A DNA stretch of 64,000 bases, from NCBI GenBank assembly GCA_902540265.1, contig CACBLW010000003.1, positions 1 through 64,000 on the forward strand, read 5' to 3'. The notes beneath the pieces were generated by a model. The model was not told the DNA's origin. It saw nothing but the letters and a program-made list of their open reading frames with translations, and searched no databases. The translations under genes and the position numbers were made by a program. Source of the DNA: an uncultured Alphaproteobacteria bacterium. Its GTDB lineage: Bacteria; Pseudomonadota; Alphaproteobacteria; HIMB59; GCA-002718135. Positions 8,936 to 43,626 of the stretch are shown one piece after another (within the stretch, counting starts at the first letter, position 1; every line of letters begins with the position of its first letter).

Positions 8936-13966
<5,031 letters not shown>

Positions 13967-36725: not shown

Positions 36726-37091
36726 TTATTTTTTTAGTTTTTCCCATTCAGCCATACCACCAGAAATATTCTTTACATTCTTAATGCCCATGTCATGCAT
36801 TGTTTTAGTTGATAAAGTTCCTTGCCCACCAACACCACAAAATACAACATATTCTTTATTAGGATTTTCTTTAAAAAATTTATTTTCTAAGGGACTACCT
36901 TCTGCTAAATAAAATTCAAGAAAAGCTCTATCCAAATGTATTGCATTTCCTATTGTTCCTTTATCAAAACTGTCTTTATCTCTTACATCAATAAATTGTA
37001 CATTTGGATCATTGAGCTTTTCCCTTGCTTCTGTTGCAGAAATATTTTCAATTTCATTTTTAACACTCATCAATTCTTCAAATTTTTTCAT
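36726..37091 (-). CDS. Rhodanese-domain protein
   Basis: FIDVRDKDSFDKGTIGNAIHLDR; VVFCGVGGQGTLSTKTMHDMGIKNVKNISGGMAEWEK (CGVGGQG active-site loop). Confidence 0.9.
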   Translation of the reverse strand: MKKFEELMSVKNEIENISATEAREKLNDPNVQFIDVRDKDSFDKGTIGNAIHLDRAFLEFYLAEGSPLENKFFKENPNKEYVVFCGVGGQGTLSTKTMHDMGIKNVKNISGGMAEWEKLKK

Positions 37092-37112: not shown

Positions 37113-37136
37113 TGGGGCGTTCTGTTGCTCAGTGCC
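37113..37136 (+). repeat. Distal copy of the tmRNA 3' end (putative att site)
   Basis: TGGGGCGTTCTGTTGCTCAGTGCC, 23/24 identical to 39730-39753 inside ssrA. Confidence 0.85.
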
Positions 37137-37324
37137 AGAACAAGTCCTCATTAAATTACACATACCCAAACACCCAATAGTTTAAGCATTTCCTACTGTT
37201 ATCACTCATTCTTTCTTTAAAACTTATATCATATTTATTTTGAGAACAGAGAATTTTTAATTATTTTACACACGATATATAATAATTTAATAAAGTTATT
37301 TAAAAATTTATTGTATGTTTAATT

Positions 37325-37681
37325 ATGTTTTTAAACTTAATAAAAAAAATCACAGTCTTCTTATTTTTTGTTAATCCTGCTCTAGCTTTTCATGATGTAG
37401 AAGTTTCTAATGAGGATATAGCTACTTTAGGAGGATTATGGGTTCAAATATTTGTTTATGAAGAAAACTGTATAGATAATCAATATTACACTTTAATAAT
37501 AGAAAGATTACAAGAAAGTCCAAGATTTGAAAGATACTCATCAGAGATAGATCATTTAACTGAAAGCCAAGAATTGGCTTGGGAAAATGGTGCTGAAGGC
37601 GCAGCTTTAGTAATTGAATCAGGTGGAACAAGCTGTGATATTATAGCCGAAGTTATTTGGGAATGGTTTGGTGAAAATTAG
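37325..37681 (+). CDS. Hypothetical exported protein (cassette 1 cargo)
   Basis: 118 aa, signal peptide MFLNLIKKITVFLFFVNPALA, acidic mature domain. Confidence 0.65.
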   Translation: MFLNLIKKITVFLFFVNPALAFHDVEVSNEDIATLGGLWVQIFVYEENCIDNQYYTLIIERLQESPRFERYSSEIDHLTESQELAWENGAEGAALVIESGGTSCDIIAEVIWEWFGEN

Positions 37682-37698
37682 AAAAATTTTAATTTATT

Positions 37699-37720
37699 TA
37701 CGCACATATTACGCACAAAT
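37699..37720 (+). repeat. Two 11-bp direct iterons TACGCACATAT/TACGCACAAAT
   Basis: Adjacent copies at 37699-37709 and 37710-37720, ~51 bp from the core at 37772. Confidence 0.7.
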
Positions 37721-37771
37721 TTAGAGCAACTTAAAAAAACAAAAAAAATGAATCAAAATTTAAGAATATGG

Positions 37772-37906
37772 TGGGGTGTTCTGTATAACGACTACTAAAT
37801 CATTATTAACAGAAAATAAGGACTTTTGGAAACTTCTTCGTATAAACTTCGTAGTAAGTTTTCATTATTCGTCAGATTTCTTGTTTTAGTTCCTCGTAGT
37901 TTTTTG
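37772..37906 (+). repeat. Cassette left-end repeat, copy A (starts with core TGGGGTGTTCTGT)
   Basis: Nearly identical with small indels to 38930-39062: ...ACTAAATCATTATTAACAGAAAATAAGGACTTTTGGAAACTTCTTCGTATAAACTTCGTAGTAAGTTTTC...GTCAGATTTCTTGTTTTAGTTC.TCGTAGT. Confidence 0.9.
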
Positions 37907-37928
37907 TTATAAAAAAAAACTAATAAAT

Positions 37929-38810
37929 ATGAAACTACAAAATATATTAATTTATTTCAACATTAGTATTTTTTTTATTTTGCTATCTTCTAGTTTAAAA
38001 GCGGAAATAAAATTAAATGATTTTGTCCCAAGTCAATTTCATGGTGTCTGGAGTGAAGATTGTGAAATTCAAGAATTTACTTGGCGAATTGATGAATATA
38101 CAAGTTTAGAAATTACTGAAAATAATTTCTATTTAGATTTTTTGAAAACTAATCAGATTAATACTTACACAGTTTCAAAATACCATCAAGAATGGGAACC
38201 GGGAAAACCATGGTATTTTTTTATGAAAATAGAAAATGAAAAACTTGTATACAAAGATATGCCCTCTGAATGGAATGAAAAAGACTTTAGTTTCTTATTA
38301 GATTCTACATATGATGACACAACTGTTTTTGAAAAATGTGAGTTAGGTATAAAAAATGAATACAAAATAATTTTAAATACACTTTTAGAAATATTAGACT
38401 CAGACATCATTAAAATTTGTAGTGAAAGTAACTTTCAAAATATTAATTGCTATAAAAGTTTTTTTAATTTTTTTGACATAAATAGAGATAGAGAATTAAC
38501 AATTGCAGAACTATCATTCTTTTCTAAATTTTTAATAAATTTTATATACCTTAATGGTAATATAAATGCCGATTATAATGAAAGTTTAATGCAAGATAAT
38601 TTTTTAATAATTAATGGAACATCATTTGTTTTTGCACCATATTTTTCACAATTACTTGTATTAAATTATGATTTTGATAATTCTAATTCTCTATCAATTG
38701 ATGAAATACTAAATGAAAATTCTGAAATTATAACAAGTATTCCACTTTTATTAAATAGCGATATAAATTCATTACAAGATTTATTCACTAAATTTAACAA
38801 TATCTTTTAA
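37929..38810 (+). CDS. Hypothetical exported protein with two EF-hand-like loops (cassette 2 cargo)
   Basis: Signal-peptide-like N-terminus; DINRDRELTIAE and DFDNSNSLSIDE calcium-loop patterns. Confidence 0.7.
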   Translation: MKLQNILIYFNISIFFILLSSSLKAEIKLNDFVPSQFHGVWSEDCEIQEFTWRIDEYTSLEITENNFYLDFLKTNQINTYTVSKYHQEWEPGKPWYFFMKIENEKLVYKDMPSEWNEKDFSFLLDSTYDDTTVFEKCELGIKNEYKIILNTLLEILDSDIIKICSESNFQNINCYKSFFNFFDINRDRELTIAELSFFSKFLINFIYLNGNINADYNESLMQDNFLIINGTSFVFAPYFSQLLVLNYDFDNSNSLSIDEILNENSEIITSIPLLLNSDINSLQDLFTKFNNIF

Positions 38811-38848
38811 ATCTAATAGTTTTAGTTGGTATAAATATTTTCTTAAAT

Positions 38849-38929
38849 ACTTCGTAGTAACTTCGTAGTAAACTTCGTAGAAAGATTTTTATAAAAAATT
38901 ATTGATATTACTAGATAATATTAAAAAAG
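38849..38929 (+). repeat. Cassette right-end repeat, copy A with three CTTCGTAG iterons
   Basis: ACTTCGTAGTAACTTCGTAGTAAACTTCGTAG...ATTATTGAT..TAGATAATATT.AAAAAAG; matches 39650-39729; followed directly by core TGGGGCGTTCTGT. Confidence 0.9.
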
Positions 38930-39062
38930 TGGGGCGTTCTGTAGAACGATCACTAAATCATATTAACAGAAAATAAGAAATTTTGGAAACTTCTTCGTAG
39001 AAACTTCGTAGTAAGTTTTCTTTATTTGTCAGATTTCTTGTTTTAGTTCTTCGTAGTCTTTT
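38930..39062 (+). repeat. Cassette left-end repeat, copy B (starts with core TGGGGCGTTCTGT)
   Basis: Match to 37772-37906; core followed by perfect inverted repeat CGTTCT-GT-AGAACG (38935-38948). Confidence 0.9.
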
Positions 39063-39590
39063 TTATTCTTTAATTAAGGATAATAATTTCTTTGCTAGTC
39101 TAGAAACTGCCTTTCTTCTATCTTTTGAAAGTTTTTTAATAATTTTTATATTTTCTTTTATTGTTTTATTATCAATTTTATTGAAAGTTATTAGAGCATT
39201 CATTGATTGACACAAAACAATCCAATCACTGGAATTATTAAGATAATCAGATACAATTTTTTTTGCTTTTTTTTGTTCTTTATTTTCTAATTGATTAACT
39301 AATTCTGAAAATAATTGAGCGCAGGTCCATTGTGTGGAAGATTGTTTTATTTTTGAAATTTTGTTTAAGAAAATATGTTTAAAATCTAAAAACCATTCTG
39401 GTTTTTGTCTAAATATTCTTTTAAAAGCATTTGATGTTCTTAATCTTACTATTTGGTCTGTGCTTGAATAACACTTAATTAATGGATTAATTCTATTTTT
39501 TTTAACAATAACATGTTCAACAACTTTTATTGTATTACCTAGTGAATTTGGATGACCTCCAGTTAGTTCAGACTCATAATTCATTATCAA
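39063..39590 (-). CDS. HEAT-repeat-like protein (cassette 3 cargo)
   Basis: 175 aa, all-alpha repeat character; ESELTGGHPNSLGNT N-terminus, VRLRTSNAFKRIFRQKPEW. Confidence 0.7.
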   Translation of the reverse strand: MIMNYESELTGGHPNSLGNTIKVVEHVIVKKNRINPLIKCYSSTDQIVRLRTSNAFKRIFRQKPEWFLDFKHIFLNKISKIKQSSTQWTCAQLFSELVNQLENKEQKKAKKIVSDYLNNSSDWIVLCQSMNALITFNKIDNKTIKENIKIIKKLSKDRRKAVSRLAKKLLSLIKE

Positions 39591-39649
39591 TTAATTTGTT
39601 TAAATAAATCTGACAATTAACATTACCTAATAATAAATTATATATTTTC

Positions 39650-39729
39650 CTTCGTAGTAACTTCGTAGTAAACTTCGTAGAGAGGTTTTTAAAAGAAATT
39701 GTTGATTTGATTAGATAATATTTAAAAAA
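39650..39729 (+). repeat. Cassette right-end repeat, copy B with three CTTCGTAG iterons, abutting the tmRNA 3' end
   Basis: CCTTCGTAGTAACTTCGTAGTAAACTTCGTAGAGAGGTTTTTAAAAGAAATTGTTGATTTGATTAGATAATATTTAAAAAA, then TGGGGCGTTCTGT of ssrA. Confidence 0.9.
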
Positions 39730-39730
39730 T

Positions 39731-39960
39731 GGGGCGTTCTGTTGCTCGGTGCCCCTGACCGCGCTCACCTAGAATCTAGGCAGCAAGTGCTAATCTATTA
39801 TCGTTAGCGTTTATAAAATAGCCCGATAACGGTGGTACAATACCGGATAAAGTCTTTGTCTTTGAATTACCGTCAAACCTATTTCGTCCCCATATTGGTG
39901 GAGACGCCGGGTACCGCCCCCGGGTCCGAATAACTTATTGCACAAAGCATTTATTATCTT
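39731..39960 (-). ncRNA. ssrA: tmRNA, circularly permuted (two-piece); proteolysis tag ANDNRLALAA
   Basis: Minus strand: T-arm CCGGG-GGCGGTA-CCCGG, acceptor CGTCTCC + ACCA (39896), ATAT spacer, 5' GGGGACG (from 39891) pairing with CGTCTCC; GCT AAC GAT AAT AGA TTA GCA CTT GCT GCC TAG = ANDNRLALAA*; terminal GGGGC...GCCCC hairpin followed by ATTTTTT. The 5' boundary of the acceptor piece is approximate. Confidence 0.93.
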
Positions 39961-39980
39961 AGTTGCAAAGCAACATTTTC

Positions 39981-40008
39981 ATTATACCTTAAACTAATAA
40001 TACTTGAA
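39981..40008 (-). promoter_or_regulatory. Putative ssrA promoter (TTCAAG-N16-TATAAT)
   Basis: On the minus strand TATAAT at 39986-39981 and TTCAAG at 40008-40003. Confidence 0.45.
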
Positions 40009-40077
40009 AGTTTTGTCTTGAAACCTAGCAATTAAAAAAAAAAATTGTTACTAATTAAAACATAAAATAAAAGAAAT

Positions 40078-42519: not shown

Positions 42520-43626
42520 ATGAACTGGAATAAAAATAACAACGAAAACAATCCTTGGGGATCAGGTGGAAATAACAATCCTTGGGGTTCAGGAGGGTCT
42601 GGAGACGGTCCAAACAGAAGAGATTTCGAAGATTCCATTAGAAAAGCAAAAGATAGATTTGGCAATTTTAAATTTGGTGGCAGACGTAACTTTTCAATAT
42701 TTATAATAGTAGCTGTTTTACTATGGTTAGCTACTGGTTTTTATAGAGTTGAGCCTGATGAGCAAGGTGTAGAGCTTTTATTTGGAAGATGGAATGGTCA
42801 AACAACAGAGCCTGGATTACATTACTTTTTTCCAACTCCAATCGGTCAAACTGTTACACCTAAAGTTGAAGTAATTAGAAAAATTAACGTTGGATTTAGA
42901 AGTGCAAGTGATCTTGGTTTTGGCTCAAATTCAAATGCAGAGCGAAAAGTAATTGAAGAAAGTTTAATGCTTACGGGTGATCAAAATATAGCAGATGTTG
43001 CATTTACAGTACTATACAAAATAAAAGATGCTGGAAATTTTCTATTCAAGCTTAGAAATCCAGAACTCACCGTTAAAGATATGTCTGAAAGTGTTGTGCG
43101 TGAAGTTGTTGGTCAAAGAGATCTTCAATTCTTACTTACAGAAGGTCGTCAAGAAGTTGAACAAGTTGTAAGAAATGAATTACAACTAGTTTTAGACTCT
43201 TATGAAAGTGGTGTTTTAATTCAATCAGTACAGCTTCAAAGTGTCGATCCGCCGGATCAAGTAATTGATGCTTTCGATGAAGTTCAAAGAGCAAGACAAG
43301 ATAAAGAAAGATTAGTTAACGAAGCAAACACTTATTTAAATAGAATTGTACCTAATGCTCGTGGTGAAGCAGCCAAACTCGTTGAAGCAGCTACAGCATA
43401 TAAAGAGCAGGTGGTTAAACAAGCAGAAGGTGTGGCACAAAACTTTATTGATGTTTATAATAGTTATAAAGATGCGAAAGAAGTAACTAAAAGAAGAATT
43501 TATTTAGAAACCTTAAGGGAAGTCTTAGAAGGTAAGAATAAAATAATTTTAGATGATACTGGAAATGGACAAGGCGTGGTTCCTTACCTTCCATTGAATG
43601 AACTTAAAAAGTCGGGAAATAATTAA
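42520..43626 (+). CDS. hflK: Membrane protease regulatory subunit HflK
   Basis: NNPWGSGG N-terminus; band-7/SPFH domain VEPDEQGVELLFGRW; adjacent hflC. Confidence 0.95.
   Translation: MNWNKNNNENNPWGSGGNNNPWGSGGSGDGPNRRDFEDSIRKAKDRFGNFKFGGRRNFSIFIIVAVLLWLATGFYRVEPDEQGVELLFGRWNGQTTEPGLHYFFPTPIGQTVTPKVEVIRKINVGFRSASDLGFGSNSNAERKVIEESLMLTGDQNIADVAFTVLYKIKDAGNFLFKLRNPELTVKDMSESVVREVVGQRDLQFLLTEGRQEVEQVVRNELQLVLDSYESGVLIQSVQLQSVDPPDQVIDAFDEVQRARQDKERLVNEANTYLNRIVPNARGEAAKLVEAATAYKEQVVKQAEGVAQNFIDVYNSYKDAKEVTKRRIYLETLREVLEGKNKIILDDTGNGQGVVPYLPLNELKKSGNN

Follow-up and report, generated by a model that had tools for sequence, protein, structure and literature searches.

Results and Discussion

Three Tandem Units between ssrA and the Rhodanese Gene

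The stretch of DNA analysed, hereafter the window, comprises 64,000 nucleotides from an uncultured alphaproteobacterium of the HIMB59 lineage; the host genome is low in GC and its relatives are mostly marine single-cell assemblies. The locus is framed by ssrA, a permuted alphaproteobacterial tmRNA gene on the minus strand at 39728–40013 (ARAGORN; Rfam RF01849, 217 bits, E 1.8e-61) with the tag ANDNRLALAA, and by a gene for a rhodanese-domain protein (Pfam PF00581), the host flank, on the same strand at 36726–37091. Between these genes lie three tandem units, each bounded by GGGG(C/T)GTTCTGT, with one ORF and without a recombinase. The unit next to ssrA, U3 (38930–39729), is an 800-bp cassette with a 175-aa cargo that recurs in about 30 genomes, and U2 (37772–38929) is a 1158-bp cassette with a 293-aa cargo; both belong to the class with the arm word CTTCGTAG. 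The left-most unit, U1 (37113–37771), is a partly decayed 659-bp cassette of the TACGCAC arm class with a 118-aa cargo, and the unit of L189 has a 118-aa ORF and five TACGCAC copies. The initial annotation had recognised U2 and U3 and counted two units in all, to which U1 has to be added.

The boundaries of each unit are direct repeats of the tmRNA 3′ end, which is the attachment core. The tmRNA-proximal core, TGGGGCGTTCTGTTGCTCGGTGCCCC (39730–39755), is attR-like and corresponds to the regenerated tmRNA 3′ end; the identical sequence adjoins the rhodanese gene in empty-site genomes. Sequence and repeat analysis placed further cores at the junctions of U2 with U3 (TGGGGCGTTCTGT, 38930–38942) and of U1 with U2 (TGGGGTGTTCTGT, 37772–37784). 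The distal, attL-like core at 37113–37136 is a displaced remnant of the tmRNA 3′ end, TGGGGCGTTCTGTTGCTCAGTGCC, which belongs to repeat family D4 and aligns with the G090/L204 empty site. The TGGGG core noticed earlier is the tmRNA 3′ terminus and not a free-standing element. Elsewhere in the window, a short 91% direct repeat of family D19, AACAATCCTTGGGG(A/T)TCAGG(T/A)GG, was observed at 42547–42596, at the start of the gene at 42520.

An empty site, with the rhodanese gene 25–27 bp from an intact tmRNA core, was found in seven relatives (L159, L161, L173, L178, L198, L204 and L205). By sequence comparison, the window equals the L204 empty site plus 2617 bp. The L204 empty site reads ...ACCTTATTTGTATGGGGCGTTCTGTTGCTCGGTGCCCC, and the boundaries in the window read ...ACCTTATTTGTGTGGGGCGTTCTGTTGCTCAGTGCC on the left and end in TGGGGCGTTCTGTTGCTCGGTGCCCC on the right; it follows that the 2617 bp are an insertion with the tmRNA 3′ end directly repeated at its two borders, and that this 3′ end was restored by the inserted DNA. 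The insertion at ssrA is precise.

The cargo of U3 is encoded on the minus strand at 39063–39590, its start being probably the ATG two codons in. The 175-aa protein gave weak HEAT/alphaRep-like matches, and it is probably all-helical according to a structural model of poor quality (pLDDT 51). The 293-aa protein of U2 (37929–38810, plus strand) gave a sub-threshold EF-hand match, and the 118-aa protein of U1 (37325–37681, plus strand) has homologues of 87–94% in L131 and L145. The gene for the latter recurs beside ssrA in L131, L145, L186 and L206, with the TACGCAC arm class where arms survive. No recombinase was detected among the ORFs of U1–U3 by Pfam, PADLOC or PHROGs, nor was a CcrB-like serine recombinase of the DsiB type found among the ORFs of the window units.

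Arm Words at the Unit Ends

The right arms of U2 (38850–38880, plus strand) and U3 (39650–39680, plus strand) each contain three CTTCGTAG sites spaced 11 and 12 bp, which begin at 38850, 38861 and 38873 and at 39650, 39661 and 39673, respectively. The three direct copies of 11–12 bp period that the initial annotation had described at both right ends were thus recovered, the first copy starting at 38850 and not at 38849. Their proximity to the TGGGG core was likewise borne out, TGGGGCGTTCTGT at 38930 and 39730 standing 57 bp past the start of the last right-arm copy, and the further copies reported for the left ends were found as CTTCTTCGTA(G/T)AAACTTCGTAGTAAG at 37832–37858 and about 38989–39015 and as TTC(C/T)TCGTAG at 37890 and 39047. 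The left arm of U2 (37834–37897, plus strand) consists of TTCTTCGTAT from 37834, CTTCGTAG at 37847 and TTCCTCGTAG from 37890, and that of U3 (38993–39056, plus strand) of CTTCGTAG at 38993, 39004 and 39049; in both, two sites lie 11–13 bp apart, with the third located about 43 bp inward of them. In U1, the right arm (37699–37716, plus strand) retains two copies of TACGCAC at 37699 and 37710, which match the right ends of the L189 and L195 units. A core at the target with iterated arm-type sites on both sides is the lambda-type attachment layout, and it is present here. Most units also have an IHF-like site with one mismatch, whose position within the right arm is constant but which is not significant in such AT-rich DNA (p about 0.2).

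Ten exact copies of CTTCGTAG occur in the window, all within the ends of U2 and U3, as compared with 0.27 expected and a maximum of three in 100 shuffles. Across the genome of 1.41 Mb, the U2 and U3 ends are the sole locations of the paired word CTTCGTAGTAA-N(0-2)-CTTCGTAG (four overlapping matches; reversed control, 0), the motif not being spread through the genome away from the cores. Iterated words one helical turn apart are typical of replication iterons and regulator operators as well, and the CTTCGTAG repeats could be the sites of a host factor (a regulator, or a replication or partition protein) carried by chance in mobile DNA. This origin is very improbable, the genome having no second location of the CTTCGTAG pair and the word being found on both sides of unrelated cargo at a fixed distance to the ssrA core. 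Replication iterons were dropped, with no second genomic site and no replication gene in the units, and so were integron attC sites, the unit ends being organised differently and arm-iterated. CRISPR-like repeats were considered and dropped.

One End Type on Many Cargos

The aligned CTTCGTAG units encode proteins of 107, 163, 175 (with a 182-aa homologue), 198, 227, 232, 264, 293, 607 and 881 aa. Their ends are conserved over about 120 bp on the left and about 90 bp on the right (the latter in all but the eroded 198-aa unit), and the similarity ends at the cargo; among the ten cargos BLASTP detected no similarity at E ≤ 1e-3. Annotation of the cargos is sparse, with Sel1 repeats in the 198-aa protein and no match for most.

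The tmRNA neighbourhoods of about 80 family genomes were the source of a catalogue of 92 core-bounded units at ssrA, ranging from 0.25 to 6 kb with a median of 819 bp. A tyrosine integrase, which is broken, was found in one unit, and the other 91 are without one. In 53 of the 92, some 7-mer is repeated at the two ends in excess of what dinucleotide shuffles give (p < 0.01). Many of these genomes are incomplete single-cell assemblies, and the assemblies do not separate circular forms from tandem junctions. The longest array seen, in L162 (G066), has seven tandem core-bounded units at ssrA and contains several arm classes (GTGTGCA, GTGTGTA).

Spread of the 175-aa Cassette

The initial annotation had proposed a motif search near integrase genes of related genomes or viruses. 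Of the 110 genomes of the family, 28 have the paired word, and in almost every case it adjoins either the ssrA core or a copy of this core that has been displaced; an integrase with CTTCGTAG arms was not encountered. The 175-aa ORFs of G057 (L041) and the window show a pairwise dS of 0, as compared with 1.12 for thyA. The medians over pairs were 0.06 for the ORF and 0.41 for thyA, with a cargo dN/dS of about 0.08, and these dS medians are indicative, the set having some genomes twice under two locus names. Over 13 distinct genomes, the median identity was 0.965 for the cassette versus 0.922 for thyA, the cassette being higher in 71 of the 78 pairs, and cassette identity did not track thyA identity (r = −0.11).

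The CTTCGTAG class is also carried by four records labelled Pelagibacteraceae, three of which (L064, L065 and L068) have the SAR11-type tmRNA tag ANESYALAA on the same contig. The 800-bp cassette of L068, a Pelagibacteraceae single-cell genome, differs by 2 nt from those of L146, L191 and L196 of the window's family. The thyA yardstick had no match in any of the four SAR11 genomes, the distance of which rests on the record labels and the different tmRNA tag. The paired word appears to be rare in the SAR11 family, since it was found in one of 397 sampled genomes.

The left neighbour of the 175-aa cassette varies (bare rhodanese gene, U2, 881-aa cassette or integrase unit), and the cassette therefore moves as a unit. 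The flanks of the SAR11 copies differ as well. These comparisons indicate a recent spread of the cassette that is independent of host lineage. Copies of the 175-aa cassette whose left end is eroded were also observed away from the tmRNA in L130, L133 and L143, near a tRNA-Gly and adjoining an element with CTTCACTGAG arms.

The units could alternatively be decayed cis-mobilizable elements (CIMEs) that lost their recombinase and are not recognised in trans, moving only with an excising intact neighbour or by homologous recombination between flanks. Tandem accretion with integrase loss is the standard scenario for CIMEs (PMC5704250), U1 and several other units are visibly eroded, with arm copies lost in U1, and the L129 unit that bears the integrase is broken too. 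Against this, the 175-aa cassette has kept intact arms and an intact coding sequence, with the dN/dS given above, while spreading across hosts with a thyA dS above 1 and into SAR11, with differing left neighbours, and the different flanks of the SAR11 copies cannot be explained by flank homologous recombination. We thus consider decay of this kind unlikely as an account of the units.

Concerted Arm Words in a Sister Scaffold

A second end-scaffold (GTTCTGTTGCTCGGTGCGTGAAC...CACCCAAAAGTTTAAGC...) is common to 16 units. Its five arm positions are occupied by GACGCGT, TACGCGT, TACGCAC, ACGGCAC or AGTCGCC, with essentially one word at all five positions in each element. Arm words were taken by hand from the alignment, and a script confirmed each in the stated end. 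Agreement of the words within an element was 0.93 for the 16 sister units versus 0.54 after shuffling, a value reached in none of 5000 shuffles. Because related elements count repeatedly in the 16-unit test, a five-class test with one unit per class is also given, in which agreement was 0.99 versus 0.50 (0 of 5000 shuffles). A variant of the CTTCGTAG scaffold is seen in L143, where an element with the same left-end layout, as compared by eye, has CTTCACTGA at the three left positions. The joint change of arm words in the sister scaffold is what sites with one cognate reader protein would show; it would not result from one host factor, since the word changes at every position of an element.

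Integrases near ssrA and the Search for a Helper

ACGGCAC is the one arm-word class with an in-unit integrase: the ends of the L129 unit, which has a tyrosine integrase, are homologous to those of the L149 and L194 units, which lack it. Units with and without an integrase that share their ends were found for this class and not for CTTCGTAG. The L129 (G048) unit extends from 10171 to 13606, and its integrase, adjoining the right end, is split in two (181 and 142 aa). The same unit has, at 11081–12438, ORFs of 105 and 347 aa, which, judged by eye, resemble a small regulator of the ArsR type and a membrane permease.

In G006 (L155), an intact tyrosine integrase of 340 aa adjoins the tmRNA. It is 51–58% identical to the G048 pieces, has a complete catalytic set (R209, K234, H287, R290, H313 and Y322), and is accompanied by arm-like GCTTCGGC repeats 11 bp apart; among solved structures, HP1 integrase and a XerC-like enzyme are its nearest relatives. 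The integrases found next to this tmRNA gene belong to the phage-integrase type of tyrosine recombinases.

No integrase with CTTCGTAG arms was detected beside about 40 integrase loci of family and SAR11 genomes, among related viral integrases, in the phage and plasmid records searched for a CTTCGTAG helper, or, in IMG/VR pattern searches, among the matches listed. A pattern scan of genomes from 84,980 species likewise yielded no such integrase, the relevant matches being all cassettes. The IMG/VR matches L033 and L034, and other pattern matches listed, were rejected as helpers, being chance or unrelated tandem repeats. As no integrase with CTTCGTAG arms was found in these collections, which include incomplete genomes, the helper of this class is inferred. 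Eight IMG/VR contigs catalogued as viral (L409, L410, L411, L414, L416, L417, L419 and L421) encode a permuted tmRNA of their own, with the core again present in its 3′ end, TGGGGCGTTCTGTTGCCAGGTGCCCC. None of these eight contains a cassette; a tmRNA of this viral kind might act both as attachment site and as vehicle for cassettes.

Another enzyme might move the cassettes, either the host Xer recombinase or a serine recombinase. An Xer-like conserved tyrosine recombinase of about 365 aa is indeed present in most genomes, but Xer and serine integrases are not known to use iterated arm sites, and the integrases next to this tmRNA are of the type described above. The serine recombinase DsiB acts in the Dehalococcoides ssrA islands (PMC3146451). 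On balance, we consider movement by an enzyme of either kind highly unlikely.

Proposed Mechanism

Taken as candidate recombinase arm sites, as they were initially, the CTTCGTAG words find support in the ends shared by ten unrelated cargos, the precise insertion at ssrA, the covarying arm words of the sister class and the tyrosine integrase of the sister scaffold. We consider it likely that the units are non-autonomous integrative cassettes with lambda-like att sites, which are moved by an integrase acting in trans. Each unit would consist of one (sometimes two) cargo gene(s) between the two halves of a lambda-type attP. The joined att site would read: three CTTCGTAG arm sites, about 50 bp, the core GGGGCGTTCTGT, about 55 bp, two arm sites, about 35 bp and one arm site. 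The tyrosine recombinase of another element would bind the arm words with its arm-binding domain and the core with its core and catalytic domains, and would join the cassette to the tmRNA 3′ end, with the crossover presumably inside the shared GTTCTGT or adjoining it. The right end of the cassette would restore the tmRNA 3′ end, and for this reason the tmRNA would stay functional and the site free for the next cassette. Successive insertion would lead to tandem arrays, the newest members usually being next to the tmRNA. Phages, vesicles and transformation are candidate routes between cells.

Comparison with Known Systems

Recombinase-less single-gene modules between site-specific recombination sites also occur in Acinetobacter plasmids, in the form of pdif (Xer) modules; their boundaries are XerC/XerD sites that have no iterated arms, in which they differ from the cassettes described here. 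Earlier work has described insertion at ssrA, tandem accretion, islands that lack an integrase and the additive cassettes of RNA genes (PMC3146451, PMC5704250, PMC10872708, PMC7771536). According to PMC3146451, the Dehalococcoides ssrA islands lie in tandem at the tmRNA 3′ end with direct repeats of it, 15 of them have no integration module and have been proposed as cis-mobilizable, and the module, where present, has six genes including the serine recombinase DsiB. They resemble the HIMB59 units in ssrA integration, direct repeat, tandem arrangement and integrase-less members; however, their recombinase is a serine enzyme and the description consulted reports no iterated arm words, whereas the HIMB59 units have conserved arm arrays with tyrosine integrases nearby and are mostly of 0.5–3 kb and mostly single-gene.

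CIMEs share with the cassettes att sites at both ends, the lack of integration and transfer genes and tandem placement at one target. They are described as decayed remnants of ICEs or IMEs (PMC5704250), whereas the cassettes are near-identical, have one end type on many unrelated cargos and are spread between species and orders. The additive flexible islands of streamlined plankton (tRNA-Lys repeats, PMC10872708; Actinomarinales, PMC7771536) are also small cassettes added at RNA genes and recognisable by the directly repeated gene end, with sizes from 330 bp up; the descriptions consulted give no arm-site architecture, end classes or pairing of integrase-bearing with non-autonomous elements. 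Tycheposons are likewise marine integrative elements at RNA genes with tyrosine recombinases, but as described in PMC10872708 they span 4–200 kb and have their own recombinase, unlike the window units of 0.66–1.16 kb, which are without one. Integron cassette arrays and CALINs (PMC11389934) are similar in that cassettes lacking a recombinase, most of them with a single gene, are lined up at one site, and differ in depending on attC sites and IntI, whereas the cassettes have lambda-like double-strand att ends and the tmRNA as target. A study of HIMB59 islands found no tRNA at island boundaries and favoured homologous recombination (PMC10734472).

In a limited search of the open-access literature, no description was found of single-gene integrase-less cassettes with conserved lambda-like ends, no account of diversified arm codes that share a target and no mention of this system for HIMB59, which is weak evidence of novelty. 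To a wider proposal we give about an even chance: an integron-like system on double-stranded lambda-type att sites, in which minimal cassettes of many classes, distinguished by class-specific arm-word codes, would share one target, ssrA, and would be served in trans by integrases of matching code from rare helper elements, single genes circulating in this way between HIMB59-type and SAR11 plankton. The concerted arm words represent a natural code-breaking set, with five or more words on one scaffold, from which the arm-binding specificity of integrases could be read. Part of the additive flexible islands gains a defined and testable att architecture, and a concrete mechanism is offered for the exchange of single genes across species, and even orders, in streamlined ocean bacteria.
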